Assembly: GCF_003986975.1 (NCBI RefSeq)
Contig: NZ_PIPO01000004.1
Span: 1 to 64,000 of the forward strand
Direction of reading: 5' to 3'
Source of the DNA: Aliidiomarina soli
Lineage (GTDB): Bacteria > Pseudomonadota > Gammaproteobacteria > Enterobacterales > Alteromonadaceae
DNA length: 64,000 bases
Part shown: positions 21,331-40,222 of the stretch, piece after piece
Position numbering within the stretch: position 1 is the first letter of the stretch
Layout of the letters: every line of letters starts with the position of its first letter
Notes under the pieces: generated by a model
What the model was told of the DNA's origin: nothing
The model's database searches: none
The model's input: only the letters and a program-made list of their open reading frames with translations
Program-made: the position numbers and the translations under genes

Positions 21331-21405
21331 CCCGGTTGTGTCCCAACGTATGGTATCAGTTGCGCAATGTGCGTAAACCGACTTACCTATGTAAAGGATC
21401 TTCCG

Positions 21406-23097
21406 ATGCGGCAATTAGTTACTTCTACTTTGGTGTGTTCAGCTCTGCTGGCCTGCACCCCAACCTCAGGGCCTGACGACTCGAAAACGGCCAGTCAGTT
21501 TCCCCTGGTCGAAGACGCCGACGGCTATTTCGACACCGACTTCTCAACCTCCTATCGTGAGCACTTACGGACCCTCGCCTCTGATGAGTTTGAAGGGCGT
21601 GCCCCCGGAACCCGGGGTGAAGAACTCACTATCGATTATATTACCAACGTGTTTCAACAGGCCGGCGTGCAGTCGCTAAGCGGGACCGAAGGCGACTATA
21701 CGCAAATGGTGCCAATGGTTCGTATCGCGCCAACTCGGGTGACCGACATGAGATTACGCGGTGGCGAGGCTGAGGAAACCTTAGCGTACCGTCAGCAAAT
21801 GATGGGCTGGACCCATCGCGCTGTCGACGAGGTCGAAATTGCAGACAGTGAGATGGTCTTTGTCGGCTACGGCATTGTTGCCCCGGAATATGACTGGAAT
21901 GATTATGAAGGCCTCGACGTTGAGGGTAAGACCGTGGTGATGCTGGTGAATGACCCCGGTTATGCGACTCAGGACGAGGCGTTATTTAACGGCAATTCGA
22001 TGACCTACTACGGGCGCTGGACCTACAAGTTTGAAGAAGCAGCACGACAAGGTGCCGATGCGGCTATTATTGTCCACGAAACCGGGCCAGCAGGCTATGG
22101 CTGGGGCGTTGTGGCGGGTGGCTCACCGATTCGTTACAGCATGAAAAGTGAGAACATGAATGCGGGCCGCGCCAAGGTGGAAGGCTGGATCACCGAGGAC
22201 AGCGCAGAGCAACTGTTCGCCAACATCGACATGACGCTGGATCAGGCGCGGACTCAGGCTCTGGCAGCCGACTTTGAACCGCTGCCGTTGCAGCGCGAGC
22301 TGTCACTGATTATAGAGAACGAGATTGAGTATTTTGAAACCGCCAATCTGATCGGCAAGGTTGAAGGTAGCCGTTACCCGGATGAACATGTGATCTACAT
22401 GGCGCACTGGGACCATATGGGGGTCGAACCCATTAGCGGCGAAGTGTTTAACGGTGCCCAGGACAACGCGAGCGGAGCGGCTGCCTTATTAGCGCTGGCT
22501 GAAAAATTTGCTGCCATTGAGCAACCCGAGCGGACCGTGTTGTTTGCTATGGTCGGCGCTGAAGAGCGCGGCCTGCTAGGGTCCAAATGGTATGCCGAGA
22601 ACCCCTTGTTGCCACTCGACCAGGCGGTCGCCGGAATCAATATGGATATGCAGAATATGTACGGGCCGGTACGTGATTTCGTCGTGGTCGGTTGGGACAA
22701 TTCTGAAATGCAGGACATTGCGGCCCCTTATGTTGAGGCGCAACAACGCTATCTGGCGCCGGAAACCAACCCGGAACGAGGCTTCTTTTACCGTTCGGAC
22801 CACTTTAGCCTGGCCAATAAAGGCGTGCCAATGCTGTACGCGAAGGGGGGTATCGACCACTTTGAACATGGCAAAGACTATGGCCGTGAGAAATTTGATT
22901 ATTTATTTGCAGAGTTGTACCACAAACCAGCAGATGAGTATGACCCTGAGTGGGATTTACGTGGCATGCAACAGGACCTTTGGATTTACTTCCGGGTTGG
23001 CCATGAACTGGTTAACAGCCGCACCTGGCCAGCGTGGCGCGAAGGCAACGAATTTGAAGCAGAACGCCTGAGAACTGAGTCACAACGGGCTCAGTAA
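21406..23097 (+). CDS. M28-family zinc aminopeptidase, lipoprotein
   Basis: The 563-residue product has a lipoprotein signal with lipobox LLAC (Cys16) and is probably exposed in the periplasm or outer membrane. A PA-like inserted domain (about 150-290) is followed by the M28 catalytic domain with metal ligands in AHWDH, GAQDNASGAAALL and AMVGAEERGLLGS, plus a distal YRSDHFSLA. It should release N-terminal amino acids from peptides. The ATG at 21406 has AAAGGA upstream; an in-frame ATG at 21367 would bury the signal peptide. It converges on the TonB receptor gene at a shared terminator. Confidence 0.92.
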   Translation: MRQLVTSTLVCSALLACTPTSGPDDSKTASQFPLVEDADGYFDTDFSTSYREHLRTLASDEFEGRAPGTRGEELTIDYITNVFQQAGVQSLSGTEGDYTQMVPMVRIAPTRVTDMRLRGGEAEETLAYRQQMMGWTHRAVDEVEIADSEMVFVGYGIVAPEYDWNDYEGLDVEGKTVVMLVNDPGYATQDEALFNGNSMTYYGRWTYKFEEAARQGADAAIIVHETGPAGYGWGVVAGGSPIRYSMKSENMNAGRAKVEGWITEDSAEQLFANIDMTLDQARTQALAADFEPLPLQRELSLIIENEIEYFETANLIGKVEGSRYPDEHVIYMAHWDHMGVEPISGEVFNGAQDNASGAAALLALAEKFAAIEQPERTVLFAMVGAEERGLLGSKWYAENPLLPLDQAVAGINMDMQNMYGPVRDFVVVGWDNSEMQDIAAPYVEAQQRYLAPETNPERGFFYRSDHFSLANKGVPMLYAKGGIDHFEHGKDYGREKFDYLFAELYHKPADEYDPEWDLRGMQQDLWIYFRVGHELVNSRTWPAWREGNEFEAERLRTESQRAQ

Positions 23098-23194: not shown

Positions 23195-26100
23195 TTAGAA
23201 GTCGTATTTAACACCAATGTTGATTTCCCACAGTGAAGGCGTTGCTTCACGTGATTGACCAGCCGGAGCGAAGAATTCGTTGAACTGGTACTGGTAGTTA
23301 CCAGCTGAACCAATCAGGTCCACATCAGCAACCTGAGTTGCTTGTGGGAAGCCTGCCTGATACAGCACGCCCCAGTCATCGTTCAGCAGGTTAGTCAGGT
23401 TGTTGATGGTGAAGAACGCTTTAGCGCGATGGGTTTCTTTGAAACCAGGCAGTTCTTGCTCAACACGCAGGTCAACCTTAGTCCACCAGTCACTGTAGAA
23501 CGCGTTACGCTCTGCAATGCCACCAGCATACTTATCCAGTCCTGAATTTTGCACGAACTCGAAGAATGCGTCAGTGTTAAAGTCAGCACCAAATACTACG
23601 TTCGGATCGTCGATACCAGTCGGTACATACAGCAGCTGACGGTTGTTACCGTAGTCACCGAAGTTTTCACCCGCGAAGGTGTAGCTGTACGGACGACCTT
23701 TGTTGTGAGTACCAACCAGGCTGAAGGTGGTGTCATAGCCATTCACAAACTGATGTTGGTAGGTTGCACGTAAGGTAAAGCGATGCGGGATCTCGTAGTT
23801 CGAAGTTGCCAGACCCGGGTTGTTCATGTCGCTACGTGCATAGTTAACAAAGTTAGAGTATGCAACAGAGCTGGTCATTGGGTTAGCATCTTCAGACTGG
23901 GTGTAAGCATAGGCCAGTGACCAGCTTAAGCCCCAGTCATATGACTTGCTCAAGGAGCTCGAGAACGCCAGTGAAGTTCCGTCTTCTGTGGCGTTGCCCA
24001 GAATTAAGTCTTCACGTGCTTCGTCGCCGAAACGAGGCTCATACAGTGGACGTCCATCTGGCAAGGTGCCAGTTGCTTCCATTGATGCGTCATAAATGAT
24101 GACCGAATCTTTTTTCTGAGCGTAGATTAGGTCGGCATTAACAACATAACCAGTGTCGAAGGTGTAAGTCGCACCTAAAGCGTACTTCCACTCGCTTGGA
24201 ATGTTGAAGTTCGGGTCCATGGTGTTAACCGCTGAATCCGGGCTTGCATTGGCTACTTCGTCAACCATATCTGCTGGCGCGTTAGCAATTGGGTTGCCGT
24301 TGCCGCTAATTTCACGGTCAAACAGGCTTTGGCCAGTGCGGTCAGTTAACTGAACCTGAGTAATACCGTCGTTCTGATAGCCGTTAGCTACCCAGACGTT
24401 CGGGTTACCACCAGAGTATAGGCCGATACCACCGCGAACTTCCAGCTCTGGCAGGGCGCGCCAGTTAAAGCCGAAACGTGGCTGCAACAGACCTTCGCCA
24501 TCAAAGTTCTGGGCGTTGCTATAACCATAGCGCTCAGTAAAGTTAGCGTTTTCTGTTGGTAAATCACTGCTGGTGTACCAATCGTAACGCAAACCGAAGG
24601 TGAAGGTTACATCCCAGTCGTAGTGATAATATTCGTCTTGCAGATAAACCGTGTTAATCGCATAGCTGTATTCAGCTGCTGCGTCACGTGGGTTTAAAGT
24701 ACCTGCCGCATTACCGTAGTAGATAGCGCTAGGAGTACCAGCTTCGAAATCATCGATTGAGCTAAAGCGATATTCACCGATGCTGTGCTGAACGAACATG
24801 TTGAAAATATCGAAGTCTTCACGCTCAAAACCAGCCGACAATGTATGGTCATTTAACTGGTAGGTGGCCATTGCATTGAAGAACGTAGAGTCGTAGCTGA
24901 GTGAGTTTGACTGACGTGAGTCATCCACACCAAGGTACACTGTTGCTTGTGACGGGTCAGTCTCACCAGGGGCAATGTTGGTAGTCGTAATCTGAACTTC
25001 ACCGAAGTTGCCTGGACCTGCGTTTACCTGTGAGTTATCAACCGATGTGGTACCAACACGAACTTCAGTTGAGAAGTCGTAAGTCCAGTCTGAGAATAAC
25101 TGAGCAACGTGTGATTCAAGTTTGGTGCTACGGTTGTAGTAGTGGTCTGAGAAAGAGTATTGCGTAGAACCACCATCTGACTGGCGTAAGTTACCGCCGT
25201 CATTGTAGTTGTAGGTATAAGCTAAGCGGTGTTCATCGTTGATGTACCAGTCTAACTTAACCAATAACTTTTCGTCTTCAACTGGCGAAGATGCGATTGG
25301 CTGGCCTACTTCGTAACCATATACATCACGCGCGATATCGGCGATACGGTCAAGTTGCGCCTGGTTTACACCAGCCACAGGAGTACCAGCACTTGAATCG
25401 GCCGCGCCCAGAGTGAAGTTCTCAACACCTTCGAATTTCTCGTAGGCAGTGAAGAAGAATAATTTGTCTTTAATCAGTGCGCCACCGACGTTGAAGCCGT
25501 AACGCTCTTCGGTGTAGTCACCGTTATCAAAGCTGTCACCTTCAAGGCTGTCGCCTCGTAATGCGTCGCTGGTGTAGTCAAAGAACACTGAACCAGAAAG
25601 TTCGTTACCACCTGATTTAGTAACGGCGTTGATGTTACAGGCGGTGAAGTTACCGTACTGAACATCGAAAGGTGCAAACTCAACAGCTACTTGCTGGATT
25701 GCATCATAAGAGAAAGGAATGCGTTCTGTTGGATAACCGTTGGCGTTCAGGCCGAAGTTATCGTTCATGCGCACGCCGTCAACTGTCAATGAGTTGTAAC
25801 GTGGGTGAGCACCACCACATTGAATGGCATCACCGAAACTCTCGTCAACGTATACGCGTGGGTCAATGCGCAGAACGTCTTTAATATCACGGTTAATTGC
25901 AGGCGCATTTTCTAAGTCTTCTTGCGAGAAAACGGCGGCTGGGCTGTTGCGACCGATCATTGGGTCGCTCATGCGGCTACCGGTGACCGCGATGCGTTCG
26001 AACTCTTCCTGAGAACGAATGGTTACGCTAACGTTTTGCGTATCACCCAGTGACAGGAACACGTTTTCAACGATATCGCGACGGCCTTCAGGGCCTTCGA

Positions 26101-26359
26101 CAACCATCATGTATGGACCACCAACCGCCAGACCGCGCGCGTTGAAAGTACCATTTGCATTTGAGGTGAGCGTGCGGCTTGTACCTGTGCGGGTATCAAT
26201 CAGCTGAATAGTCGCGTTTGCAACTGTCTGCCCCTGCTCGTTTGAGACAACACCACGTAACGCGGAGGTTGTTTCCTGAGCTAAAGCAACACCAGAGGAC
26301 ATTCCGATGGTAAGCGCGACTGCCGCTGCGATGCGAGTCAGTTTCGTCTTCTTAGTCAT
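23195..26359 (-). CDS. Oar-like TonB-dependent receptor with carboxypeptidase-regulatory-like N-domain
   Basis: The 1054-residue outer-membrane protein has a signal peptide (to about residue 28, ALAQ), a carboxypeptidase-regulatory-like beta domain (about 32-110; GVVSNEQGQTVANATIQL), a TonB-box-like FERIAVTG, a plug domain with YNSLTVDGVRMND, and a very long beta-barrel ending in IGVKYDF, the usual C-terminal aromatic signal. This layout is that of Oar-type receptors, common in peptide-using marine bacteria; the ligand is unknown. The ATG at 26359 with upstream AGGAA is preferred over one five codons earlier. It is divergent from cstA across a 273-base gap. Confidence 0.92.
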   Translation of the reverse strand: MTKKTKLTRIAAAVALTIGMSSGVALAQETTSALRGVVSNEQGQTVANATIQLIDTRTGTSRTLTSNANGTFNARGLAVGGPYMMVVEGPEGRRDIVENVFLSLGDTQNVSVTIRSQEEFERIAVTGSRMSDPMIGRNSPAAVFSQEDLENAPAINRDIKDVLRIDPRVYVDESFGDAIQCGGAHPRYNSLTVDGVRMNDNFGLNANGYPTERIPFSYDAIQQVAVEFAPFDVQYGNFTACNINAVTKSGGNELSGSVFFDYTSDALRGDSLEGDSFDNGDYTEERYGFNVGGALIKDKLFFFTAYEKFEGVENFTLGAADSSAGTPVAGVNQAQLDRIADIARDVYGYEVGQPIASSPVEDEKLLVKLDWYINDEHRLAYTYNYNDGGNLRQSDGGSTQYSFSDHYYNRSTKLESHVAQLFSDWTYDFSTEVRVGTTSVDNSQVNAGPGNFGEVQITTTNIAPGETDPSQATVYLGVDDSRQSNSLSYDSTFFNAMATYQLNDHTLSAGFEREDFDIFNMFVQHSIGEYRFSSIDDFEAGTPSAIYYGNAAGTLNPRDAAAEYSYAINTVYLQDEYYHYDWDVTFTFGLRYDWYTSSDLPTENANFTERYGYSNAQNFDGEGLLQPRFGFNWRALPELEVRGGIGLYSGGNPNVWVANGYQNDGITQVQLTDRTGQSLFDREISGNGNPIANAPADMVDEVANASPDSAVNTMDPNFNIPSEWKYALGATYTFDTGYVVNADLIYAQKKDSVIIYDASMEATGTLPDGRPLYEPRFGDEAREDLILGNATEDGTSLAFSSSLSKSYDWGLSWSLAYAYTQSEDANPMTSSVAYSNFVNYARSDMNNPGLATSNYEIPHRFTLRATYQHQFVNGYDTTFSLVGTHNKGRPYSYTFAGENFGDYGNNRQLLYVPTGIDDPNVVFGADFNTDAFFEFVQNSGLDKYAGGIAERNAFYSDWWTKVDLRVEQELPGFKETHRAKAFFTINNLTNLLNDDWGVLYQAGFPQATQVADVDLIGSAGNYQYQFNEFFAPAGQSREATPSLWEINIGVKYDF

Positions 26360-26632
26360 GCCATTTTCCTGCATAGTTTGTGAGAGAGTTTGAGAGTAAA
26401 GCTTGTTGAATGCGTGAGGTTACATCCAGTTTGTGACAACACCATGACAATGTGGCGCGTATTTTATGACAAAAATTAACCAATTTCATACTTTTTTCAT
26501 GTTTATTTACTCCAAAAATGGAACTTTCTGCCATTTTCGGTATTTGTCACCCTATACCTTAGTCTAATCTCGGGCTATAAACGTACATGGTAGAATCTCT
26601 AATTCTGTAAATATACCTAGTGAGAGCAACAC
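26360..26632. other. Divergent intergenic region between TonB receptor and cstA
   Basis: This AT-rich 273-base gap must hold both promoters. On the plus strand TTGTCA (26544-26549) and TATAAA (26576-26581) are visible but not at ideal spacing. I see no convincing Fur box or CRP site. Several GTCA/TGAC strings occur but do not form a regular array. Confidence 0.4.
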
Positions 26633-28321
26633 ATGAATGCAATCTTCGTACTCATAGTAGGGCTAGGCGCGATGGCGCTTGGTTACGTCTTTTACTCGAA
26701 GTTTATTGCCGAACGGATTTATCGGCTTGATCCTAATTTCCAAACGCCAGCGCATGAGTTTGAGGACGGCGTTGATTTTGTACCTACCAATAAATACGTG
26801 TTATGGGGCCACCACTTTACCTCCGTAGCTGGCGCAGCGCCGATTATAGGCCCTGCGATAGCGGTCATTTGGGGGTGGGTGCCAGCCTTCTTGTGGGTCG
26901 TATTGGGTACTATTTTCTTTGCCGGTGTGCATGATGCCGGGGCGGTATGGGCGAGCAACCGCAACAAAGCGAAGTCAATGGGTGCATTGACCGGGGATGT
27001 GGTTGGAACACGTGCCCGCAGCTTGTTTATGATTGTAATCTTCCTTGTACTGCTGATGGTAAATGCCGTATTTGCCACCGTAATTGCAGGCTTACTGGTT
27101 GATTTTCCGACATCGGTAATTCCGGTCTGGGGCGCCATTTTTGTGGCCTTGATTATCGGGCAATTGATTTACCGTAAGTACATTGGTCTTATTACGGTTT
27201 CTATTGTCGGAGTGATTGCACTGTACGCGTTGATCGGACTCGGTCCGGTGATGCCTATCAGCTTACCTGAAACTATGGTCGGGCTGTCTGACCGCGCGAT
27301 GTGGATTGTCATCCTCTTCGGCTATGCAGCAATTGCCTCGCTACTGCCAGTCTGGATGTTGCTTCAGCCACGCGACTATATCAATGGTTTGCAGCTGTTT
27401 ATCGGCTTGATTTTACTCTATGGTGCCGTGTTACTGATGGGGCCAGAAATGGTTGCTCCAGCGTTTAACAACAACGTACCCGAGGGCACGCCATCGATTA
27501 TCCCACTGCTCTTCGTGACGATTGCCTGTGGTGCGATTTCTGGCTTCCACGGCCTGGTTGCGGGCGGCACCACGTCTAAGCAGCTGGATAAAGAAACCGA
27601 TGCCCGTTTTGTTGGTTATTTTGGGGCGGTAGGTGAAGGCTCGCTGGCCTTAGCCGCTATCATTGCCGCCACCGCCGGCTTTGCAACCTTTGCTGACTGG
27701 AATGCGGTTTACTCGGCCTTCGGTCAGGGTGGTGTCAATGCCTTTGTCGAAGGGGGCGCATACATCATTAATAATGGGCTCGGCATTGAGATTGGTCTGG
27801 CTGAAACGCTGCTGACCGTAATGGCGGTATTATTTGCCGGAACCACTATGGATACAGGTTTACGCTTGCAGCGTTATATCTTTCAGGAGTGGGGTAGCAT
27901 CTACGATATAAAATGGATGCAAAAGATTATGCCGGCTACCTTACTCGCTGTGGGTACCTGTTTGTTACTGGCGTTCGGTGCCGGTGGCGCGGACGGCTCT
28001 GGTGGTCTGGTTATCTGGCCGCTGTTTGGCACCACCAACCAGTTACTTGCTGGCCTGACCCTGATGGTAATTACGGTGATTCTGGTACGCATGGGCCGCC
28101 CTGCTTACTACACGCTTGTTCCCTTGATCTTCCTGTTGCTAATGACGGTTGCGGCGTTGATTCTGCAATTGAAGACATTCTACGCCAGTGGCAACTGGTT
28201 CCTCTTCAGTCTGGATATTGTGGTGCTGGTTGCTGCTATCTTTATAGTGTTTGAGTGTGGCACTACATTGAGCCGACTGCGTAAAGAGCGGGTTGAAGAA
28301 GGAAGCAATGAAAATTCATAA
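26633..28321 (+). CDS. cstA: Carbon starvation protein CstA, pyruvate/peptide transporter family
   Basis: CstA proteins are multi-spanning inner-membrane transporters; in E. coli the family imports pyruvate and has been linked with peptide use. The 562-residue product has about 14-16 hydrophobic segments and family strings such as WGHHFTSVAGAAPIIGPAIA, SGFHGLVAGGTTSKQ and FAGTTMDTGLRLQRYI. It is the shorter form (E. coli about 700). Its stop overlaps the next gene by 14 bases. The usual small YbdD/YjiX partner is replaced by the Cys-Cys-ending protein described next. Confidence 0.94.
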   Translation: MNAIFVLIVGLGAMALGYVFYSKFIAERIYRLDPNFQTPAHEFEDGVDFVPTNKYVLWGHHFTSVAGAAPIIGPAIAVIWGWVPAFLWVVLGTIFFAGVHDAGAVWASNRNKAKSMGALTGDVVGTRARSLFMIVIFLVLLMVNAVFATVIAGLLVDFPTSVIPVWGAIFVALIIGQLIYRKYIGLITVSIVGVIALYALIGLGPVMPISLPETMVGLSDRAMWIVILFGYAAIASLLPVWMLLQPRDYINGLQLFIGLILLYGAVLLMGPEMVAPAFNNNVPEGTPSIIPLLFVTIACGAISGFHGLVAGGTTSKQLDKETDARFVGYFGAVGEGSLALAAIIAATAGFATFADWNAVYSAFGQGGVNAFVEGGAYIINNGLGIEIGLAETLLTVMAVLFAGTTMDTGLRLQRYIFQEWGSIYDIKWMQKIMPATLLAVGTCLLLAFGAGGADGSGGLVIWPLFGTTNQLLAGLTLMVITVILVRMGRPAYYTLVPLIFLLLMTVAALILQLKTFYASGNWFLFSLDIVVLVAAIFIVFECGTTLSRLRKERVEEGSNENS

Positions 28322-28589
28322 GCTGACAGCCATCAAAAAGTGGTGGCAAAAGGCGAACTACTTCGCGGAGGAGGCGTATAACGCCCCCTACCGCGCTGCC
28401 ATAGCAAGAGCAAAACGCGAGCAGGATGATTTATTCATGCTGCTCGTTTTTTCTGAAATGATGGGTGTTCCCAACCCCGCCAGCTATTACACCCTTGAAT
28501 TACAACCCTTGTTACTGGAACGTTTTCATGACTGGCATATGCGCATGGGCATGGAAAAATCACCTTTGGACCATTTCAAATGCTGCTAA
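28308..28589 (+). CDS. Small CstA-linked protein ending in Cys-Cys-stop (cory-CC-star type)
   Basis: The 93-residue soluble product starts at the ATG at 28308, which has GAAGGA upstream and lies inside cstA. It is rich in aromatic and basic residues (KKWWQKANYFAEEAYNAPYR) and ends in DHFKCC followed by the stop. The CC-stop ending recalls the C-terminus of YbdD/YjiX, the normal CstA partner, although the rest is different apart from a GVPN/GVPD-like string and a tyrosine. I know this type of protein under the database name cory-CC-star; no function is established. It overlaps cstA by 14 bases and the ArsA-like gene by 10, so the three are tightly coupled. Confidence 0.82.
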   Translation: MKIHKLTAIKKWWQKANYFAEEAYNAPYRAAIARAKREQDDLFMLLVFSEMMGVPNPASYYTLELQPLLLERFHDWHMRMGMEKSPLDHFKCC

Positions 28590-29590
28590 CTGATAAAAAT
28601 GTCCTCCTTGTCGGCGGCAAAGGCGGGGTCGGCAAGACGACGATGTCGGCGACCCTGGCTTTACTGGCTGCGTCGCGGGGGCGTAAGACACTGGTGATCT
28701 CAACGGATCCGGCTCATAGTCTGGCGGATGCCTTTGGTCAGCCGGTGGGTGATCAGGAAGTTAAACTACGGGAAAACTTGTGGGCATTGGAAATCGACCC
28801 TGATCGGGAAGTAAAAGCTCACATCGATCGGGTGGCGGCGGAAATGAAAAAGCTCACGCGCCCTGAGATGTATCACGAGATTGAACGTCAGTTACGTCTC
28901 ACGCAGCAGTCACCGGGGGCGCAGGAAGCGGCCTTGTTAGAACGCATAGCGTCTATTCTCGATAGCGGCCTCAATGAACAGGGCTATGACCTGATTATTT
29001 TCGACACCGCGCCGACCGGGCATACCCTGCGACTGCTCAGCCTGCCAGAAGCAATGGCGGCGTGGACCCAGGGTTTGCTAAAACACGACAGCAGATCGCA
29101 GAAACTGGCGGGGGTGCTCGACCACCTGACGCCGAAGCAGGGCCGTGATATTGCCAACCCGATGGCGGACCCGAAAGAGCATGAAACGGATGGCATGAGT
29201 AAACGTAACCAGGCTATTACGGAGCGCTTACTCACGCGGCAGCGTCTGTTTCAGCGGACTCGACGACTGTTTACCGACAGTAAGCGTTGTGCCATGTTGT
29301 TTGTGCTGACCCCGGAAAAGCTGCCGGTACTGGAAACCGGTCGTGCCGTAGAGACACTCAAGGGTGAAGGCTTACCGCTGGCTGGCCTGATCGTGAACCG
29401 GGTTTTGCCAGACGACGCGGATGGGGAGTTCCTGGCGAAGCGACGAGAACATGAGAAACAATATCTGCGGCAGATAGATCAGCGCTTTGCGAATTTGAAG
29501 CGTTATTTTGTGCCATTGCAGGCAATGGACATTGAAGGAATGGAAGGGCTTGAACGAATGAGTTCGCTGCTGGAAAGCGCGGGTCTTTAA
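28580..29590 (+). CDS. ArsA/Get3-family ATPase
   Basis: The 336-residue product is a deviant-Walker P-loop ATPase with GGKGGVGKTT (signature Lys14, P-loop Lys19), switch I STDPAHSL with Asp43, and switch II DTAPTGHTLRLLSLP. ArsA proteins drive arsenite efflux and Get3 targets tail-anchored proteins. Here the arsenite-binding cysteines are missing (only one Cys, in SKRCAML) and no arsB, arsR or arsD is nearby, so arsenic resistance is unlikely. Its start lies inside the CC-ending gene, suggesting it energises or assembles something made with that protein and CstA. That role is inference. Confidence 0.85.
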   Translation: MLLTDKNVLLVGGKGGVGKTTMSATLALLAASRGRKTLVISTDPAHSLADAFGQPVGDQEVKLRENLWALEIDPDREVKAHIDRVAAEMKKLTRPEMYHEIERQLRLTQQSPGAQEAALLERIASILDSGLNEQGYDLIIFDTAPTGHTLRLLSLPEAMAAWTQGLLKHDSRSQKLAGVLDHLTPKQGRDIANPMADPKEHETDGMSKRNQAITERLLTRQRLFQRTRRLFTDSKRCAMLFVLTPEKLPVLETGRAVETLKGEGLPLAGLIVNRVLPDDADGEFLAKRREHEKQYLRQIDQRFANLKRYFVPLQAMDIEGMEGLERMSSLLESAGL

Positions 29591-29636: not shown

Positions 29637-30650
29637 ATGCAAGCAATTGTTGCGCGTAAAGGCGAGTTAGTGGATGTGGAAATGGCTAAGCCAAGTCCGC
29701 AGGAGCACGATATATTAGTCCAGGTGCAGGCGGTATCGGTCAATCCGGTAGACACCAAGGTACGGATGCGAGCAAAGCAAAGTGGCGACGAAAAAGTGCT
29801 TGGCTATGATGCGGTTGGTATCGTTGAAGCCGTCGGTGAGCAGGTAGAAGGCTTTAAACCCGGTGACCGTATCTGGTACGCCGGCGACGTCACCCGCCCT
29901 GGCAGCAACGCTGAATTTCAGTGTGTTGACTGGCGAATAGTCAGTCATGCACCGAAGTCATTAAGTGATGCAGAAGCCGCTGCAATTCCGTTAACGGTAT
30001 TAACCGCCTGGGAACTGCTGTTTGACCGCTTGCAATTGACCTCGGATGCCAGTGACGATGCAGGTGACACAGCCAGTAGCGAACGAGTACTTTTAGTCGT
30101 AGGGGCCGCTGGCGGGGTTGGTTCGATGTTGGTGCAACTAGCCCGGCAGTTAACCAAAGCGACTGTGATAGGCACTGCATCTCGTCCTGAATCAAAAGAC
30201 TGGGTGAGTCGTTGTGGCGCACATCATGTGATTGACCATTCTGAACCGCTCTCAGCAGGGCTTGCAGAATGTGGTCTTAGCGATATCACCGATGTGGCAT
30301 CGTTAACGCACACGGACAGTCATTTCGATGAGTTGGTGCGAATGCTCAGACCACAAGGGCGCTTTGCATTGATTGATGACCCCGAGCAAGCACTGGATAT
30401 TGGCTCAATGAAACAAAAGTCCCTGTCATTGCACTGGGAGTTTATGTTTACCCGGGCCATGTTCAAAACCGCTGACATCCAACGTCAGGGCGATATTCTG
30501 AAACAAGCGGCAAGGTTAATTGATAGTGGGCGTTTACAAACAAGCTTGCAGCAACACCTGTCTCCGCTGAACGCGGCGACGCTTGAGCAGGCCCACCAGC
30601 AACTGATGTCGCAGCGCACCGTAGGTAAAGTGGTGGTAACGCGAGACTAA
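29637..30650 (+). CDS. MDR-superfamily oxidoreductase (zinc-type alcohol dehydrogenase-like)
   Basis: The 337-residue product has a GroES-like N-domain with VSVNPVDTKVR and GYDAVGIVEAVGE, then a Rossmann fold with VVGAAGGVGSMLVQLA for NADPH binding. It belongs to the quinone-oxidoreductase-like branch that keeps the fold but lacks catalytic zinc cysteines; the substrate is unknown. A strong GGAGG ribosome site precedes the ATG, 46 bases after the ArsA-like gene, so it may share the cstA transcript. It ends at a bidirectional terminator. Confidence 0.9.
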   Translation: MQAIVARKGELVDVEMAKPSPQEHDILVQVQAVSVNPVDTKVRMRAKQSGDEKVLGYDAVGIVEAVGEQVEGFKPGDRIWYAGDVTRPGSNAEFQCVDWRIVSHAPKSLSDAEAAAIPLTVLTAWELLFDRLQLTSDASDDAGDTASSERVLLVVGAAGGVGSMLVQLARQLTKATVIGTASRPESKDWVSRCGAHHVIDHSEPLSAGLAECGLSDITDVASLTHTDSHFDELVRMLRPQGRFALIDDPEQALDIGSMKQKSLSLHWEFMFTRAMFKTADIQRQGDILKQAARLIDSGRLQTSLQQHLSPLNAATLEQAHQQLMSQRTVGKVVVTRD

Positions 30651-30721: not shown

Positions 30722-33700
30722 TTAGGGCGTAATGTCATCAGCGACTGGTAACATAATAGGCTGACTCCGCAGCTCCGGAATAGGCTCATCATCCAGTTTG
30801 CGCTGCAACAGTTCGATGGCGTAATTGAGCTGGGCATCGATGCCGGTGAAGGTGGCATGGGGCAGATTGTCTACTTCAATGTCCGGCTCCACGCCGTAGC
30901 CTTCAATGACCCAGCGTCCGTCCATGGCAAACTGCGCGGTTTCAGCCACTCGTGCCAGTCCGCCATCTGCTAACTGATTACGCCCTGAGAGCCAAACTCC
31001 GGCCCCGGCGGTTCGCTTACCCACCAAAGGCCCGAGGCCAAGCGCTTTGACCCCGGCGGCGAACGTCTCACCGTCAGAATAGGTCAGTTCATCAGTCACA
31101 ATGACCAGATGCCCGCGAAACGTTTGCTGCATATTTGTGTACGGTGCGCCGTGCGTATTAGGCTCCCAGAATGACCAGGCGCGGCGCAGCAGTTTTTCGA
31201 TAATCCAGCTGTCAATATTGCCGCCACGGTTGCGCCGCACGTCGATAATCAGGCCCTCACGGTCGACATTGGCATAGAATTCACGGGCAAATGAAGCGAT
31301 GTCGTTGGGTCCCATCGCATACAGATGCAGGTAGCCGAAATTCTGTTCCGAGGCCACATCTACTTTCTCGCGGTTGCGCTGCACCCAGTCCTGATAACGT
31401 AACTGATGGTCTTGCTGCACAGTAGCGGGGTACACCATGGTTTGTAGCGTGGTTCGTTGGCGTCGCAGATCTAAGCGCACCGGCTTATTGGCCTGGTTGC
31501 GCAGCGCCTGGTTAAGATCCGCCTGAGTGCTGATGCGGCGACCATTGACAGCCGTTATGTAGTCTCCCTCAGTCGCATTAACACCAGGTTTGGCCAGCGG
31601 CGAGGCTTGCTCGGGCAGCTCAGGATCGGTCCGGTAGATACGCAGAATACGTACGCCGTTGTCGGTTGTTTCTAATGCGGCTCCCAGGGTTGCCGCCGAT
31701 GGCTGATCATCAGCGGCTGGATAGTCGCCTCCGCGAACTTGCGAATGCAAGACGCTAAGCTCGCCCATCATCTGTGCGAATAAGTCATCTAATTCATGCC
31801 GGTCGGTAACTCGGGGCAACAATGACTGATACTTTTCCCGTGTGGCACGCCAGTCTAACCCACGCATGTCGGCGTCAAAGAGGAAGTCACGGTGCATCAG
31901 CCAGGCATCGCGGAACATTTGCTGCCACTCTTCAACCGGGTTGAACGCCAGTTGCCACTGGTCAGTTGCTAAATGCGATCGGGTTAGATCCTCAGGTGCG
32001 GTGGCCTGAACGTCATCAATATAGAAGTCATTGTTGCTGGTTCGCCAATACAGGCTATTAGTCTGAGAGCTTACGGCGTAGTCCTCGACCTGACTCGCAA
32101 ATACCTTCACCTCTGGTTGATGCGGGTCAATGGCAACGCTTATCAGCTGCTGATGGTTGTCTCCGGCGCGCAGCAGGTAGAGAAATTCATCGGTCATTTG
32201 CAGCTGGCGATAATTGCCGGCTTCCAGTGGAACTTGCCACAGGCGACTAGCAAGACCGTCCCAGTCAACTGGTTGGCGGCGCGAACGTTCTTCAGTAGCA
32301 CCCTGGTCACACTGACTGACTTCGCTTTCTGGCTGAAACGGAAAACATGCCTGTGACTTCAGACTCACTGCAAACACTAGCCCACGTTTATCGAACATCG
32401 GCCCAAGGTTGCGATCGCCCCAGGGGGAACGCGGATTGGCATCGAAATTACGGTTAGACACAAAATACAACCAATGACCGTCAGTACTAAAGGCCGGTGA
32501 GAACGAATCATACTTAGTCGTGCTAACCGCTTGTTGACGCTCTTCATCCACCGAATAGAGTAAAACCTGTGAGCGGTCGCCGTCCTGATTGCTTTTACTG
32601 AATGCTACTAATTTACTATTGGTGGACCAGACGACGTCTGCGTAGGGAGAGTGACCCCAGCCGCCTTCGGCGATGCGGCTGTTGTTGCCATTGCTTAAAT
32701 TGAGCAGCCAAAGATCGCCGTTTTTATCGTCATGGGCAAGGTAGTTGCCATCTGGAGAGAGGTGGATACCCCAGCGGAATACACTGCCATCATCAGTTAG
32801 TTGGCTGGCACCACTGGAGCCATCCGCTGGGAAACGCCAGATTTCATTTTCACCACTGTGATCATTGATCGCGTATATCCAGCGCCCGTCAGGGCTCATG
32901 ACTGCATTACGGGAGCGGCTGCCAACCGGGGTCTGCACTTCAAACAGGCGCTGGTGGCTTTTACCGGCAACCGCAATTTGTGACCGGGCTGTTATTACTA
33001 CCCGCTCCTGCTCGCCGTTATAGCTGGTGTCAGTCAGGTAATCCAGTGGATTCTCAATCCAGCGTTCCTGGCGTTGAGCAAAGTCACTGGTAAGGTGGAT
33101 ATCGAGTGTTTCGCTGTGCCCTGATTCGAGTTCCAGTAGTTTCAGATCTGCGCCAAGCTGGTAGACAATCCGCCCCTGGCTTATATCTGCCGACCAGACT
33201 TGCCAGTCATTGTATTCCGTTAACTGCTGCTTTTCGCTACCATCGCCATTCATTGACCACAAGTTCGGCGTACCAGTGGCGTCCGAAATGAAATAAACAC
33301 GAGTGCCATCCACCATAGGTTGGCGAACGGATGCAATATGGTCATCGGTCAGCAGTTCTGCTTCTTCGTCTCCGGGGCTAAAGCGCCATAGCTCGCCCAT
33401 TGCGCCGCCACGATAAATACGTGTGTTATCGCCAGTAGCCTGCAGACCGAAACGGATAAAGTACAGAGTTTCGGGGTTAACCGGGTGAATGGTTTCGCTG
33501 CGAACTTCATAATTACCGTCGGCATCCGGCTCCTCGCTGCGGTGCTCTATTACTCGGCCCTCAGCGCGCAGGTTGTAACTGCCTTCTATCGCATCAGTCA
33601 GCGGGATTGTGCTGGTGGTCAGCGACTCCGGGTTGACACTGCGCAGTAGCCATTGATTTGCCGGGCCCATGACATGATCAGTGCTGTAAAGCACCTGACC

Positions 33701-34060
33701 GTCGGCCGTCCAGCCCTGCACTCGTACGCGGCTGTTTTCAAACGTAATCCGTTTTGGAATACCGCCCTGTAGCGGCATGACATAGGCTTCTGGTGCGCCC
33801 TCGTAGTCTGCTACAAAGGCAACCGAGTTGCCGTCGGGAGAGATGGCGGCATAGCGTTCTTCAGCATCACTTGTGGTAAGGCGGGTGGCGTTACCACCAT
33901 GCACCGTGGTACGCCAAAGGTCACCTTCCGCGGTAAAAACGATCTGGTTCTGATGAATGCTGGGGTTGCGATAATAGCCACGAGTACTATCGTCGGCGAC
34001 TACGTGCATCGAGCCACTCGCCAAGAGCGCACCGGACGCCAGGTACAGCGCTAACTTCAT
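30722..34060 (-). CDS. Tricorn-like S41 family peptidase
   Basis: The 1112-residue product is a secreted tricorn-type protease. After a signal peptide (cleavage near residue 22, HVVA) come two beta-propeller regions (repeats such as AISPDGNSVAFVAD and LSPDGNYLAHDD, about 30-680), a helical segment, a PDZ domain (about 800-880) and the S41 catalytic domain. VRRNRGGNID and TYSDGETFAAG hold the oxyanion and nucleophile region, with Ser995 as likely nucleophile. Such enzymes degrade oligopeptides, which fits the M28 peptidase and Oar-like receptor nearby. An AGGA site precedes the ATG. Confidence 0.93.
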   Translation of the reverse strand: MKLALYLASGALLASGSMHVVADDSTRGYYRNPSIHQNQIVFTAEGDLWRTTVHGGNATRLTTSDAEERYAAISPDGNSVAFVADYEGAPEAYVMPLQGGIPKRITFENSRVRVQGWTADGQVLYSTDHVMGPANQWLLRSVNPESLTTSTIPLTDAIEGSYNLRAEGRVIEHRSEEPDADGNYEVRSETIHPVNPETLYFIRFGLQATGDNTRIYRGGAMGELWRFSPGDEEAELLTDDHIASVRQPMVDGTRVYFISDATGTPNLWSMNGDGSEKQQLTEYNDWQVWSADISQGRIVYQLGADLKLLELESGHSETLDIHLTSDFAQRQERWIENPLDYLTDTSYNGEQERVVITARSQIAVAGKSHQRLFEVQTPVGSRSRNAVMSPDGRWIYAINDHSGENEIWRFPADGSSGASQLTDDGSVFRWGIHLSPDGNYLAHDDKNGDLWLLNLSNGNNSRIAEGGWGHSPYADVVWSTNSKLVAFSKSNQDGDRSQVLLYSVDEERQQAVSTTKYDSFSPAFSTDGHWLYFVSNRNFDANPRSPWGDRNLGPMFDKRGLVFAVSLKSQACFPFQPESEVSQCDQGATEERSRRQPVDWDGLASRLWQVPLEAGNYRQLQMTDEFLYLLRAGDNHQQLISVAIDPHQPEVKVFASQVEDYAVSSQTNSLYWRTSNNDFYIDDVQATAPEDLTRSHLATDQWQLAFNPVEEWQQMFRDAWLMHRDFLFDADMRGLDWRATREKYQSLLPRVTDRHELDDLFAQMMGELSVLHSQVRGGDYPAADDQPSAATLGAALETTDNGVRILRIYRTDPELPEQASPLAKPGVNATEGDYITAVNGRRISTQADLNQALRNQANKPVRLDLRRQRTTLQTMVYPATVQQDHQLRYQDWVQRNREKVDVASEQNFGYLHLYAMGPNDIASFAREFYANVDREGLIIDVRRNRGGNIDSWIIEKLLRRAWSFWEPNTHGAPYTNMQQTFRGHLVIVTDELTYSDGETFAAGVKALGLGPLVGKRTAGAGVWLSGRNQLADGGLARVAETAQFAMDGRWVIEGYGVEPDIEVDNLPHATFTGIDAQLNYAIELLQRKLDDEPIPELRSQPIMLPVADDITP

Positions 34061-37549: not shown

Positions 37550-40222
37550 TTAGAAACGGTAGGTCAGGCTGGCACTGACACTAGTTCCAGGGTCGCGCCC
37601 TTGCAGAATTTCCCCTTGTTGGAGAATTTCAGTGCGTTCCCCGAGCAGGTTCTTGGCCGCCAGTTTCAACGACAGTCCCTCTACCGGATAGTAGCTGTAT
37701 GTGGCATCGACAGAGTGGAACGGTTGCTCATAGGCATCGTCTTTGCCATTCACGCCGGCAAAGTTAATCCGTTCGCCAAATACGTTGTAGCTAAGCGTTG
37801 CCGAGTGGCGTTCATTGTTGGAGTCGAAGCCGAGCTGCGCATTGACTACATACTCTGAGTGCCCGCTCATGCGACGTTCCAGGTTAGTGATATTGGACGC
37901 GCCAAACCGCTGGATACGAATATCTGAGTCGCTCAGAGTCAGGTTACCGGCAACAAAGAACTGATCCAGCCAGCCCGGAGAGGTTGACCATAGCCCACCT
38001 AAACGGCGCACAAACTCGGTTTCAACACCATAAATGCTGCCTTCTTCCGCATTACGGAACGAGACCAGTAAGTTACCGTCCGAGCCCATGATTTCAATGC
38101 TTTCAATCGGCGCGTCAATGTCCTTATAGAAGGCGCCAACACTGAGGCTGTTGCCGGAGGGTAAGTACCACTCCCAGCGCACGTCAGCATTAAGCAGCTT
38201 TGAGCTTTCCAGATCCTGAAAGCCGATCACGTTGAAGTCAGTTATTGGGTCGACGTAGAGCACCGGCGTGACCTCACGTAAATCCGGACGCACTACCGAC
38301 TGACTGAGACCAAAACGTACCTGCATATCCGGGTGGAACAACCAGGTCAGTGCAGCGCTGGGGTACCAGTCTTCATCCAGCAACGGATATTCTGCAGGGT
38401 CACCCTGAATCTCACCCGTGGATGGGCTTAATGGTAACGCCAATTGGCGGAAGTCTTCGTAGCGAGCACCCAGTGTAAAGCGCCAGGTGTCATTCAGCAT
38501 CGAGTCGAGGCCGAGATAAAACGCATCCAGTTGCTGAGCGGCCACATAGTCGTCCGCCTGGGCGGTAACATCTGAGATAGCGAAATTCTTCGACGGGTCG
38601 AGAATATTGGCATCGGAAAATATCTCCGAAAAGCGCTGCTGCAGCTCAACATTATCGAAGCCACGGCTGTCCAGCTTGAAGCGGTCGACTTCTGAGTTCC
38701 GTGAGCGTTGGAAGTACATATAACCGCCCTGCAGTTCCAGCTCCCAACTTGCCAGACTCACTGGTAGCTTGAAGTCGATGCTGCCGTTCTCGGTCCGATC
38801 TTTCATATCGCCAAAGATATACTGCACCGCATTGTCGCTGCGGCGCAGGGTGGCGGTTTGACTACCGTCATCCTGAGTCGAGCGAATGTAGCGGTACTCA
38901 ACTTCGCCCGGTGCGTAGCGGCGGGCGCGGGCATCTGTCCATTGCCACTGCATATTGAGGTCACTGAGGAAATCAAAATGATGGTCGCCGCGAAACTGGT
39001 TAGCAGTTAATGTGCGTTCTTCATAACGGGCCGAGTAGTCCATGTTTTCACGGTTCGGTTCGTTGATGGTTTCGATGGTATCGCCAACTTTCAGTTTTAC
39101 TTCATCGCTCGTATCAAGCAGGTAAATGGTGCTGCTTTCGAGCGTATGCATGTTGTCATAATTCAGCCCGAAGTTAACAATCGAGGACACCTGTGTGCTG
39201 TATTCGGTGCCTGAAATGTCGTCGTAGCGAACCAGTGGAGTCAGTTCACTGCCACTGGTGATTGAGTAATAACGTTCCTGTTCGTCGATATTGCGGCTGG
39301 AGCGATCATAGGCAAATGAGCCAATAGCACCAAAGGTCAGTTTGTCAGTTAACTGCAGACTGTCGCCGTAGGTCAGGCTGGCGTCCATGTCTGGACCAAT
39401 TGAGGTACGCTCAATGTCCATATCCCGGTTTAGCGCGACACCCAGTTCACGGTTGATGGTTTCGGCTCGCGCCAGGTTTTCGGCGTTAATACCACCAAGT
39501 TGGCGGGCAATTGGAATGGTTTCCAGCGAGCCATACAAATCCAGCGCCTGCTGAATGTCGGTTGGTAAACCGCGGGTGCCGTCATCACGGCCGCGCCAGT
39601 CATCGTCTCCGCCGGCGTATTCGAGCCCGTCGTCGGAGTTCAGACTGTTGTAGCCGGTACCCAGCGACAGTTCGAACACACGCTCACGAGGCAGGCTTAG
39701 GGTACGGATGTTTACGCCACCACCACCAAATGAAGCTGGTTGATCAACCGAGAAGGTTTTCTGCACCATCAGGCTTTCGATGATAGCAGTCGGAAACATA
39801 TCCAGCGGTACCACGTTGCGGGTCGGGTCAGGGCTGGGCACCATAGCGCCGTTGAGTAAGGTACTGGAATAACGCTCGCCGAGACCACGGACGTAGATAA
39901 ATTTATTATCAATCAGGGTCAGGCCAGTGATTCGTTTCAGTGCCGCGGCAACATCCGAGTCGCCAATACGGCTGATCATTTCTGCATCCAAAATTTCGGT
40001 AACCTGCGATTGCTCACGGCGTTCAGCCGCGGTGATCGCCGCCGAACTCATTAATCGGCCGGTTACCTGAATACGCTCAATGCTAGGTGCCACATTACTG
40101 TCGGCTGCTTCTGCGCTCTCTGCACTCTCAGCCCAAGCGGGCTGAGAGATACAAGAGACAGAGGCGAGCGCGAGCAGGATGGCCTTGGCCAGCGGGCGTA
40201 AGGTCATGTTTGAACAGCTCAT
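37550..40222 (-). CDS. TonB-dependent receptor
   Basis: The 890-residue outer-membrane receptor has a signal peptide (to about residue 31, AWAE), the TonB-box-like string IERIQVTGR, a plug with ITGLTLIDNKFIYVRGLGERYSS and LDMFPTAIIESLMVQKTFS, and a beta-barrel ending in VSASLTYRF. RGLGERYSST is typical of a subgroup often paired with secreted lipoproteins. It starts 14 bases after the duplicated lipoprotein gene, with GAGAGG before the ATG, so the two form an operon. The ligand is unknown; the upstream Pho-like array suggests a phosphorus compound, which is inference. Confidence 0.92.
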   Translation of the reverse strand: MSCSNMTLRPLAKAILLALASVSCISQPAWAESAESAEAADSNVAPSIERIQVTGRLMSSAAITAAERREQSQVTEILDAEMISRIGDSDVAAALKRITGLTLIDNKFIYVRGLGERYSSTLLNGAMVPSPDPTRNVVPLDMFPTAIIESLMVQKTFSVDQPASFGGGGVNIRTLSLPRERVFELSLGTGYNSLNSDDGLEYAGGDDDWRGRDDGTRGLPTDIQQALDLYGSLETIPIARQLGGINAENLARAETINRELGVALNRDMDIERTSIGPDMDASLTYGDSLQLTDKLTFGAIGSFAYDRSSRNIDEQERYYSITSGSELTPLVRYDDISGTEYSTQVSSIVNFGLNYDNMHTLESSTIYLLDTSDEVKLKVGDTIETINEPNRENMDYSARYEERTLTANQFRGDHHFDFLSDLNMQWQWTDARARRYAPGEVEYRYIRSTQDDGSQTATLRRSDNAVQYIFGDMKDRTENGSIDFKLPVSLASWELELQGGYMYFQRSRNSEVDRFKLDSRGFDNVELQQRFSEIFSDANILDPSKNFAISDVTAQADDYVAAQQLDAFYLGLDSMLNDTWRFTLGARYEDFRQLALPLSPSTGEIQGDPAEYPLLDEDWYPSAALTWLFHPDMQVRFGLSQSVVRPDLREVTPVLYVDPITDFNVIGFQDLESSKLLNADVRWEWYLPSGNSLSVGAFYKDIDAPIESIEIMGSDGNLLVSFRNAEEGSIYGVETEFVRRLGGLWSTSPGWLDQFFVAGNLTLSDSDIRIQRFGASNITNLERRMSGHSEYVVNAQLGFDSNNERHSATLSYNVFGERINFAGVNGKDDAYEQPFHSVDATYSYYPVEGLSLKLAAKNLLGERTEILQQGEILQGRDPGTSVSASLTYRF

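Follow-up and report, generated by a model that had tools for sequence, protein, structure and literature searches.

CstA-family carriers serve under carbon limitation and in the uptake of peptides and pyruvate, and are accompanied by a small protein that ends in two cysteines. The E. coli carrier, a protein of 701 amino acids, stands beside one such companion, YbdD, which is described in a passage of PMC5847655 as needed for full CstA-dependent pyruvate uptake. A second arrangement was reported by Castillo and Saier in 2010 (PMC2963123). The passages of that paper on cstA-cstX-arsA operons list CstA together with an ArsA homologue in 26 cases; in 24 of these a protein of about 90 amino acids, named CstX, is also present. 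The trees of these operons largely match, the ATPases are single-domain proteins of about 330 amino acids that lack the cysteines of ArsA, and CstX is proposed to couple CstA to ATP hydrolysis. The locus considered here agrees with the operon type set out in those passages. It lies in the first 64,000 nucleotides of contig NZ_PIPO01000004.1 of Aliidiomarina soli (assembly GCF_003986975.1), the stretch referred to below as the window, and consists of adjacent genes for a CstA (562 amino acids), a small cory-CC-star protein (cory for short) and a single-domain ArsA-like ATPase, with no ars genes in the scanned part. By size and place, and not by sequence comparison, CstX is probably the same protein as cory.

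The trio is therefore a known gene set. A preliminary description of the window had called the system undescribed, which has to be withdrawn: the family NF041419 exists for the small protein, and in the passages cited the 2010 paper described the operon type and proposed an energising role. The arrangement and the leading idea are in print; the comparative case made here is wider than that of 2010. The open-licence literature in PubMed Central, when searched, gave no experiment on the mechanism of the trio, no mention of cory-CC-star no publication beyond PMC2963123 on CstX or an ArsA-type ATPase together with CstA, and none on YjiX with BtsT. YbdD and cory have no detectable kinship, yet both end in CC and both accompany carriers of the same family, and cory is joined by an ATPase of its own in bacteria that are only distantly related. 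This system makes it possible to test directly what the CC tail does and what an ArsA-like ATPase does where arsenic resistance is not involved.

Linkage and co-occurrence of the three genes

At the level of gene content and order, cstA, cory and arsA were shown to occur, go missing and be rearranged as a set, in the manner of one module. The best 80 of 572 confirmed cory matches in genome_contigs were examined as loci; they comprise 74 from Gammaproteobacteria, three from Betaproteobacteria, two from unplaced Pseudomonadota and one from Gemmatimonadota, and their 28 genus labels include 23 named genera. The order cstA-cory-arsA on one strand is found in 78 of them, so that the neighbourhood survey proposed in the preliminary description returned recurrent linkage. 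One exception (L046) begins at a contig edge. The other (L045), from a metagenome-assembled genome (MAG), has cory-arsA with a different gene upstream. Its genome (G531) carries a single cory and a single cstA, which lie on different contigs; no cory was seen in the roughly 0.9 kb around that cstA. When open reading frames (ORFs) of at least 180 amino acids near the trio were clustered, a size limit that leaves cory out, only cstA and arsA among the 18 most widespread clusters listed reached all 28 genus labels. The largest of the other 16 reached 12 labels, and several of these are probably frames antisense to the trio genes. Six plasmid records have a cory match, and all three that were examined carry the trio (Cytobacillus, Pseudochrobactrum and Paracoccus).

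The same association holds for presence and absence. Among 58 relatives, G000 included, cory is found in 15; exactly these genomes also show an ATPase match above 240 bits, the next-best match listed scoring 48.8 bits, and all 15 have cstA, with the three genes adjacent in 15 of 15 loci. Genomes of the same genus carry either the whole trio (13 of 17) or none of the three genes (G006, G009, G013 and G014). YbdD (PF04328) is found in two of the 58 relatives, both with a full-length CstA and without cory. A wider sample of 349 Pseudomonadota genomes has seven with cory and 18 with a match to the ATPase family TIGR00345 at E values up to 1e-20. Seven of the 18 have a single match, in a frame of 329-417 amino acids, and these are exactly the seven cory genomes. 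The remaining 11 have at least two matches, which in ten genomes lie in frames of at least 579 amino acids, as they would in two-domain ArsA, and in one (G236) in fragments. Kinship between the sampled genomes makes them count for less than independent observations would.

A further locus, L102 (titled Longimicrobiales, part of genome G530), belongs to the phylum Gemmatimonadota, in which cory is present in 30 of 150 sampled genomes, G530 included. Within the fetched stretches the order is cory-arsA-cstA in 16 of the 30 and cstA-cory-arsA in ten; one locus (L167) has cstA about 3 kb past arsA and one (L143) meets a contig edge. Two loci (L146 and L147) have cstA-cory without an adjoining arsA, and a single-domain ArsA match lies elsewhere in both genomes. 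The match in G632, on another contig, scored 418.6 bits against a profile of the trio ATPase, a value taken for G632 only and not for the match in G633; G632 also has a two-domain ArsA. That the set is kept despite a changed order argues for a common function.

Several loci contain additional genes. On the Cytobacillus plasmid, cstA and cory are separated by the gene for a protein of 95 amino acids that matches no NCBIfam family (L136:4693-4980), and a Natronospirillum MAG has a second cstA directly 3′ of the trio arsA (L042:7391-9070). A minus-strand gene at L082:3-1613 belongs to a cluster found close to the trio in 16 loci under four genus labels, and its product looks like a sensor kinase that carries a sodium-solute-symporter domain. 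Where arsA is not adjacent, two further genes follow cstA-cory (L179:2048-5275 and L180:1303-4605), presumably for a sodium-solute-symporter-like protein and a CobW-like GTPase.

The three proteins

The protein alignments, window included and short or low-scoring rows left out, have 75 rows for CstA, 81 for cory and 79 for the ATPase. The window's small protein matches the NCBIfam family NF041419 (cory-CC-star) at 137.3 bits over a cut-off of 80, along positions 2-80 of the 80-position profile; among the matches listed, the closest named record is from Aliidiomarina sedimenti and identical in 79 of 79 residues. The terminal Cys-Cys is present in all 81 rows and in 30 of 30 Gemmatimonadota loci. 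His74, Trp76, His77, Cys92 and Cys93 are invariant in two alignments, of 54 and 17 rows, the smaller of which includes a protein from Bacillota. Every cory protein retrieved has the CC ending, for which the searches themselves select, and no search for a selenocysteine-ended cory was made. An AlphaFold 2 (AF2) model has two predicted helices (residues 3-51 and 57-79) and a 14-residue C-terminal tail, with a mean predicted local distance difference test score (pLDDT) of 71.0 that falls to about 52 at the last residues. A fold search with this model gave nothing significant (five matches, E 8.5-9.8), and a sequence search of solved structures gave one match at E 0.89. The 19-residue hydropathy maximum of the window's protein is 1.02, and it ranges from 0.9 to 1.3 with a mean of 1.09 in the 81 rows, below the 1.6 that we take to be the usual threshold for a transmembrane segment (TMS). 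No TMS or tail anchor is evident by hydropathy in these rows. For the archaeal CstX of cluster 14, a passage of PMC2963123 reports a single TMS, with a different program.

The arsA start codon is nested within the last codons of cory (AAA TGC TGC TAA, Lys-Cys-Cys-stop), and the CC was considered as a mere by-product of this overlap. This was rejected because the CC is kept in loci where the genes do not overlap (L010 and L012, in which the P-loop of the ATPase lies about 500 bases further) and in the reordered loci. About 500 bases separate cory from the start of the ATPase match in the loci of three same-genus genomes (L010:1741-2230, L012 and L008); by eye, the gap in L010 apparently holds a short frame on the opposite strand.

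E. coli CstA-YbdD and the trio have in common a CstA-family carrier beside a small CC-ended protein, and the likeness between YbdD and cory is confined to the C-terminal end. The window's cory has no Pfam match and no NF033934 match, PF04328 was not found in 54 relatives, and on these profiles cory falls outside the YbdD/YjiX family. The idea of a divergent YbdD still detectable by sequence was dropped, as hhalign gave a probability of about 1%. The preliminary description, which had noted a YbdD/YjiX-like CC end on an otherwise different protein, was right on both counts. An alignment of 12 YbdD sequences (without L114) has Y25, Y28, H36, C64 and C65 invariant; the ending is CPC in three of these sequences. 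Fifteen YbdD loci (12 from a sample of 143 genomes of the class, two from the 58 relatives and that of E. coli) had no ArsA or cory match in the scanned stretch, and 13 had CstA. In some Epsilonproteobacteria YbdD/DUF466 proteins have a C-terminal selenocysteine, read as a sign of redox function in a passage of PMC4607533, and a selenocysteine-ended member also stands in a table row of PMC13188914. E. coli YbdD itself matches the KCU-star selenoprotein family at 70 bits, under the cut-off of 85. The selenocysteine end suggests that chemistry takes place at the C-terminus of YbdD/DUF466; if the CC of cory acts like the YbdD end, this would reflect convergence or very old common descent.

The window's CstA belongs to the CstA superfamily (PF02554, 457 bits, cut-off 27) and not to the E. 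coli type of pyruvate/proton symporter (NF011590, 245 bits, cut-off 1188). A sequence search of solved structures found no CstA structure. The AF2 model (pLDDT 78.0, predicted template modelling score 0.83) was matched by Foldseek to LeuT, ApcT, LAT1 and NKCC1, with E values down to 3.5e-6 and TM-scores by query length of 0.35-0.53 in the 50 rows shown, and CstA thus models as a LeuT/APC-type carrier, the fold of ion-coupled carriers. C299 and C443 are invariant in the 75 rows. As evidence for a link with cory they were rejected: C299 occurs in every aligned CstA, whether a partner is present or not. C443, which YbdD-type CstAs lack, is kept in two CstAs that have no partner (L118 and L120), so that no partner-dependent cysteine was found in CstA.

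The ATPase scores 270.3 bits against TIGR00345 (cut-off 135) and 252.7 bits against PF02374 (cut-off 24.3). The P-loop GGKGGVGKT is invariant in the 79 rows and the motifs STDPAHSL and DTAPTGHTLRLL are invariant or nearly so. Its only cysteine, C237, is kept in 8% of the rows and none is conserved, which bears out the statement of the preliminary description that the arsenite-binding cysteines are lacking. The nearest solved chains are algal ArsA1 (5zme) and archaeal 3zq6 and 3ug6. Aligned to 3zq6, the window's ATPase has ADGEFL in the place of SDCEFC, whose CEFC we take to be the zinc-binding CxxC of Get3 at the dimer interface. With the CxxC replaced and no conserved cysteine, neither arsenite chemistry nor zinc chemistry of the Get3 type is expected. 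The protein shares with Get3/TRC40 a single ATPase domain, the P-loop GKGGVGKT and a TIGR00345 score above the cut-off, and differs from it by the missing CxxC and by an operon shared with a carrier. With the arsenite ATPase ArsA, which has two ATPase domains and three metalloid cysteines, it shares the family and a proposed role beside a carrier; it differs in having one domain (TIGR04291, 150 bits of 650), no conserved cysteine and no ars genes among those scanned. From its family it probably acts as a dimer. Hydropathy of the groove region, which could be parsed in 47 of the 79 rows, does not separate the trio ATPases (-0.71) from 3zq6 (-0.70), while the methionine content is 0.026 against 0.094.

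Possible roles of the ATPase and the small protein

The preferred reading, to which we give an even chance, is that the trio forms one transport module in which cory is an adaptor in the place of YbdD and the ATPase activates or gates CstA through cory. CstA, as a LeuT/APC-type carrier, would import peptides or small carboxylates, pyruvate for instance, by ion coupling. Cory would be a small helical protein of the cytosol, its Cys-Cys tail flexible, and would fill the place of YbdD in this branch of CstA. The ATPase would form a dimer with an ATP-dependent open/closed switch, handling no arsenite and carrying no zinc of the Get3 type. Cory would stand between the two larger proteins and relay to CstA the binding of nucleotide by the dimer, and the relayed switch would activate or gate the carrier or possibly assemble it; the CC tail may be the contact or the reactive end. 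Since the model of CstA has a fold of ion-coupled carriers, ATP need not drive it, and an ATPase that switches or assembles CstA is more likely than one that drives it. A module is also supported by genomes in which the linkage is broken and the parts are still there, as with cstA in G531 and arsA in G632 on other contigs.

Several points weigh against this reading. Carriers of the LeuT/APC fold normally need no ATPase, and the fold matches of CstA are distant, with root-mean-square deviations of 7-15 in the Foldseek rows. No homology between cory and YbdD can be detected. The distances of the three proteins correlate at 0.79, 0.88 and 0.86 (74 rows), which may merely mirror a shared species history. 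Two of the relatives (G030 and G033) have a trio-type CstA, at 865 and 869 bits against the trio-CstA profile, and no cory, trio-type ATPase or YbdD, so that the partners are not always needed; either they have been lost there or such a CstA works alone. The partnerless genes (L118:789-2468 and L120:4048-5733) are followed on the 3′ side by an ORF that matches LiaG weakly in L118 (45 of 285 bits) and by a leucyl aminopeptidase-like gene in L120 (154 of 432 bits).

The ATPase could instead convert CstA into a primary transporter, in the way that ArsA acts on ArsB, and cory would then be the linker that couples the two. This pump was proposed in the 2010 paper with the ArsA/ArsB precedent as cited in its passages (PMC2963123), and the recurrent linkage and co-occurrence of the trio would fit it. 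It is nevertheless unlikely: the predicted fold of CstA is that of ion-coupled carriers, the arsenite mechanism does not transfer to an ATPase without a conserved cysteine, and G030 and G033 have a CstA of this type on its own. A targeting or chaperone ATPase of the Get3 type, which would deliver or fold cory or CstA outside the transport cycle, is suggested by the nearest solved relatives, which include the archaeal Get3-like 3zq6 and 3ug6 besides algal ArsA1. Such a role in biogenesis seems doubtful here, as the zinc CxxC of Get3 is replaced, cory has no evident tail anchor and the lower methionine content is weak evidence against a Get3-like groove.

The invariant residues of cory raise a different possibility, in which His74, His77, Cys92 and Cys93 make up a metal site or a thiol switch that the ATPase loads or resets and that gates CstA. 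Invariance in both the 54 and the 17 rows, the CC kept where the genes do not overlap, the selenocysteine end of some YbdD/DUF466 proteins (in a passage of PMC4607533) and the match of E. coli YbdD to the KCU-star family, although below its cut-off, all speak for such a metal or redox module. The ATPase, however, has no conserved cysteine, none that depends on the partners was found in CstA, and the low-confidence model of the cory tail does not allow the geometry of a site to be judged; we hold the idea to be improbable. The specific form in which His-x-Trp-His and Cys-Cys make up a metal or thiol centre, loaded or reset by the cysteine-free ATPase so that ATP matures or switches on a secondary carrier, is distinctly unlikely. 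If true, this kind of transporter activation would have no counterpart met in the literature searched. Very unlikely is shared regulation alone, of three nutrient-limitation genes whose products do not interact physically. In its favour, no interaction data were found and a lone CstA exists, but the matched occurrence over the 349 and the 58 genomes, the linkage that survives reordering and the parts that persist unlinked speak against it.

The locus and its surroundings

The features of the locus are collected in Table 1; both overlaps have the lengths given in the preliminary description. The cory frame begins with ATG and ends in DHFKCC, its stop codon at 28587-28589, and is immediately preceded by the purine-rich stretch AAGGAAG. 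An alternative TTG start at 28293 would give a protein of 98 amino acids. An Rfam scan gave no match, and scans for promoter-like sites (one against 3.5 expected) and terminator-like sites (seven against 4.0 expected) were of little use.

Table 1. Positions of the trio and of its notable parts in the window
Feature	Position	Strand	Basis
cstA, CstA-family transporter, 562 aa, predicted LeuT/APC-type fold	26633..28321	+	ORF; PF02554; AF2 model; Foldseek
cory-CC-star protein, 93 aa, ends KCC-stop	28308..28589	+	NF041419; AF2; alignment
arsA-like single-domain ATPase, 336 aa, P-loop GGKGGVGKT	28580..29590	+	TIGR00345; PF02374; conservation
cstA/cory overlap, 14 bases	28308..28321	+	sequence
cory/arsA overlap, 10 bases	28580..28589	+	sequence
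cory codons for His74-Asp75-Trp76-His77	28527..28538	+	His74, Trp76, His77 columns invariant

No ars gene was found among the ORFs scanned near the trio (29637-30650 and nine of the larger ORFs within 18029-40222), in agreement with the preliminary description. The operon is flanked by genes for an M28 peptidase (21367-23097) and a tricorn-like S41 peptidase (30722-34060), and genes for TonB-type receptors lie nearby at 23195-26374 and 37550-40222. These surroundings hint, though unspecifically, at the use of peptides.

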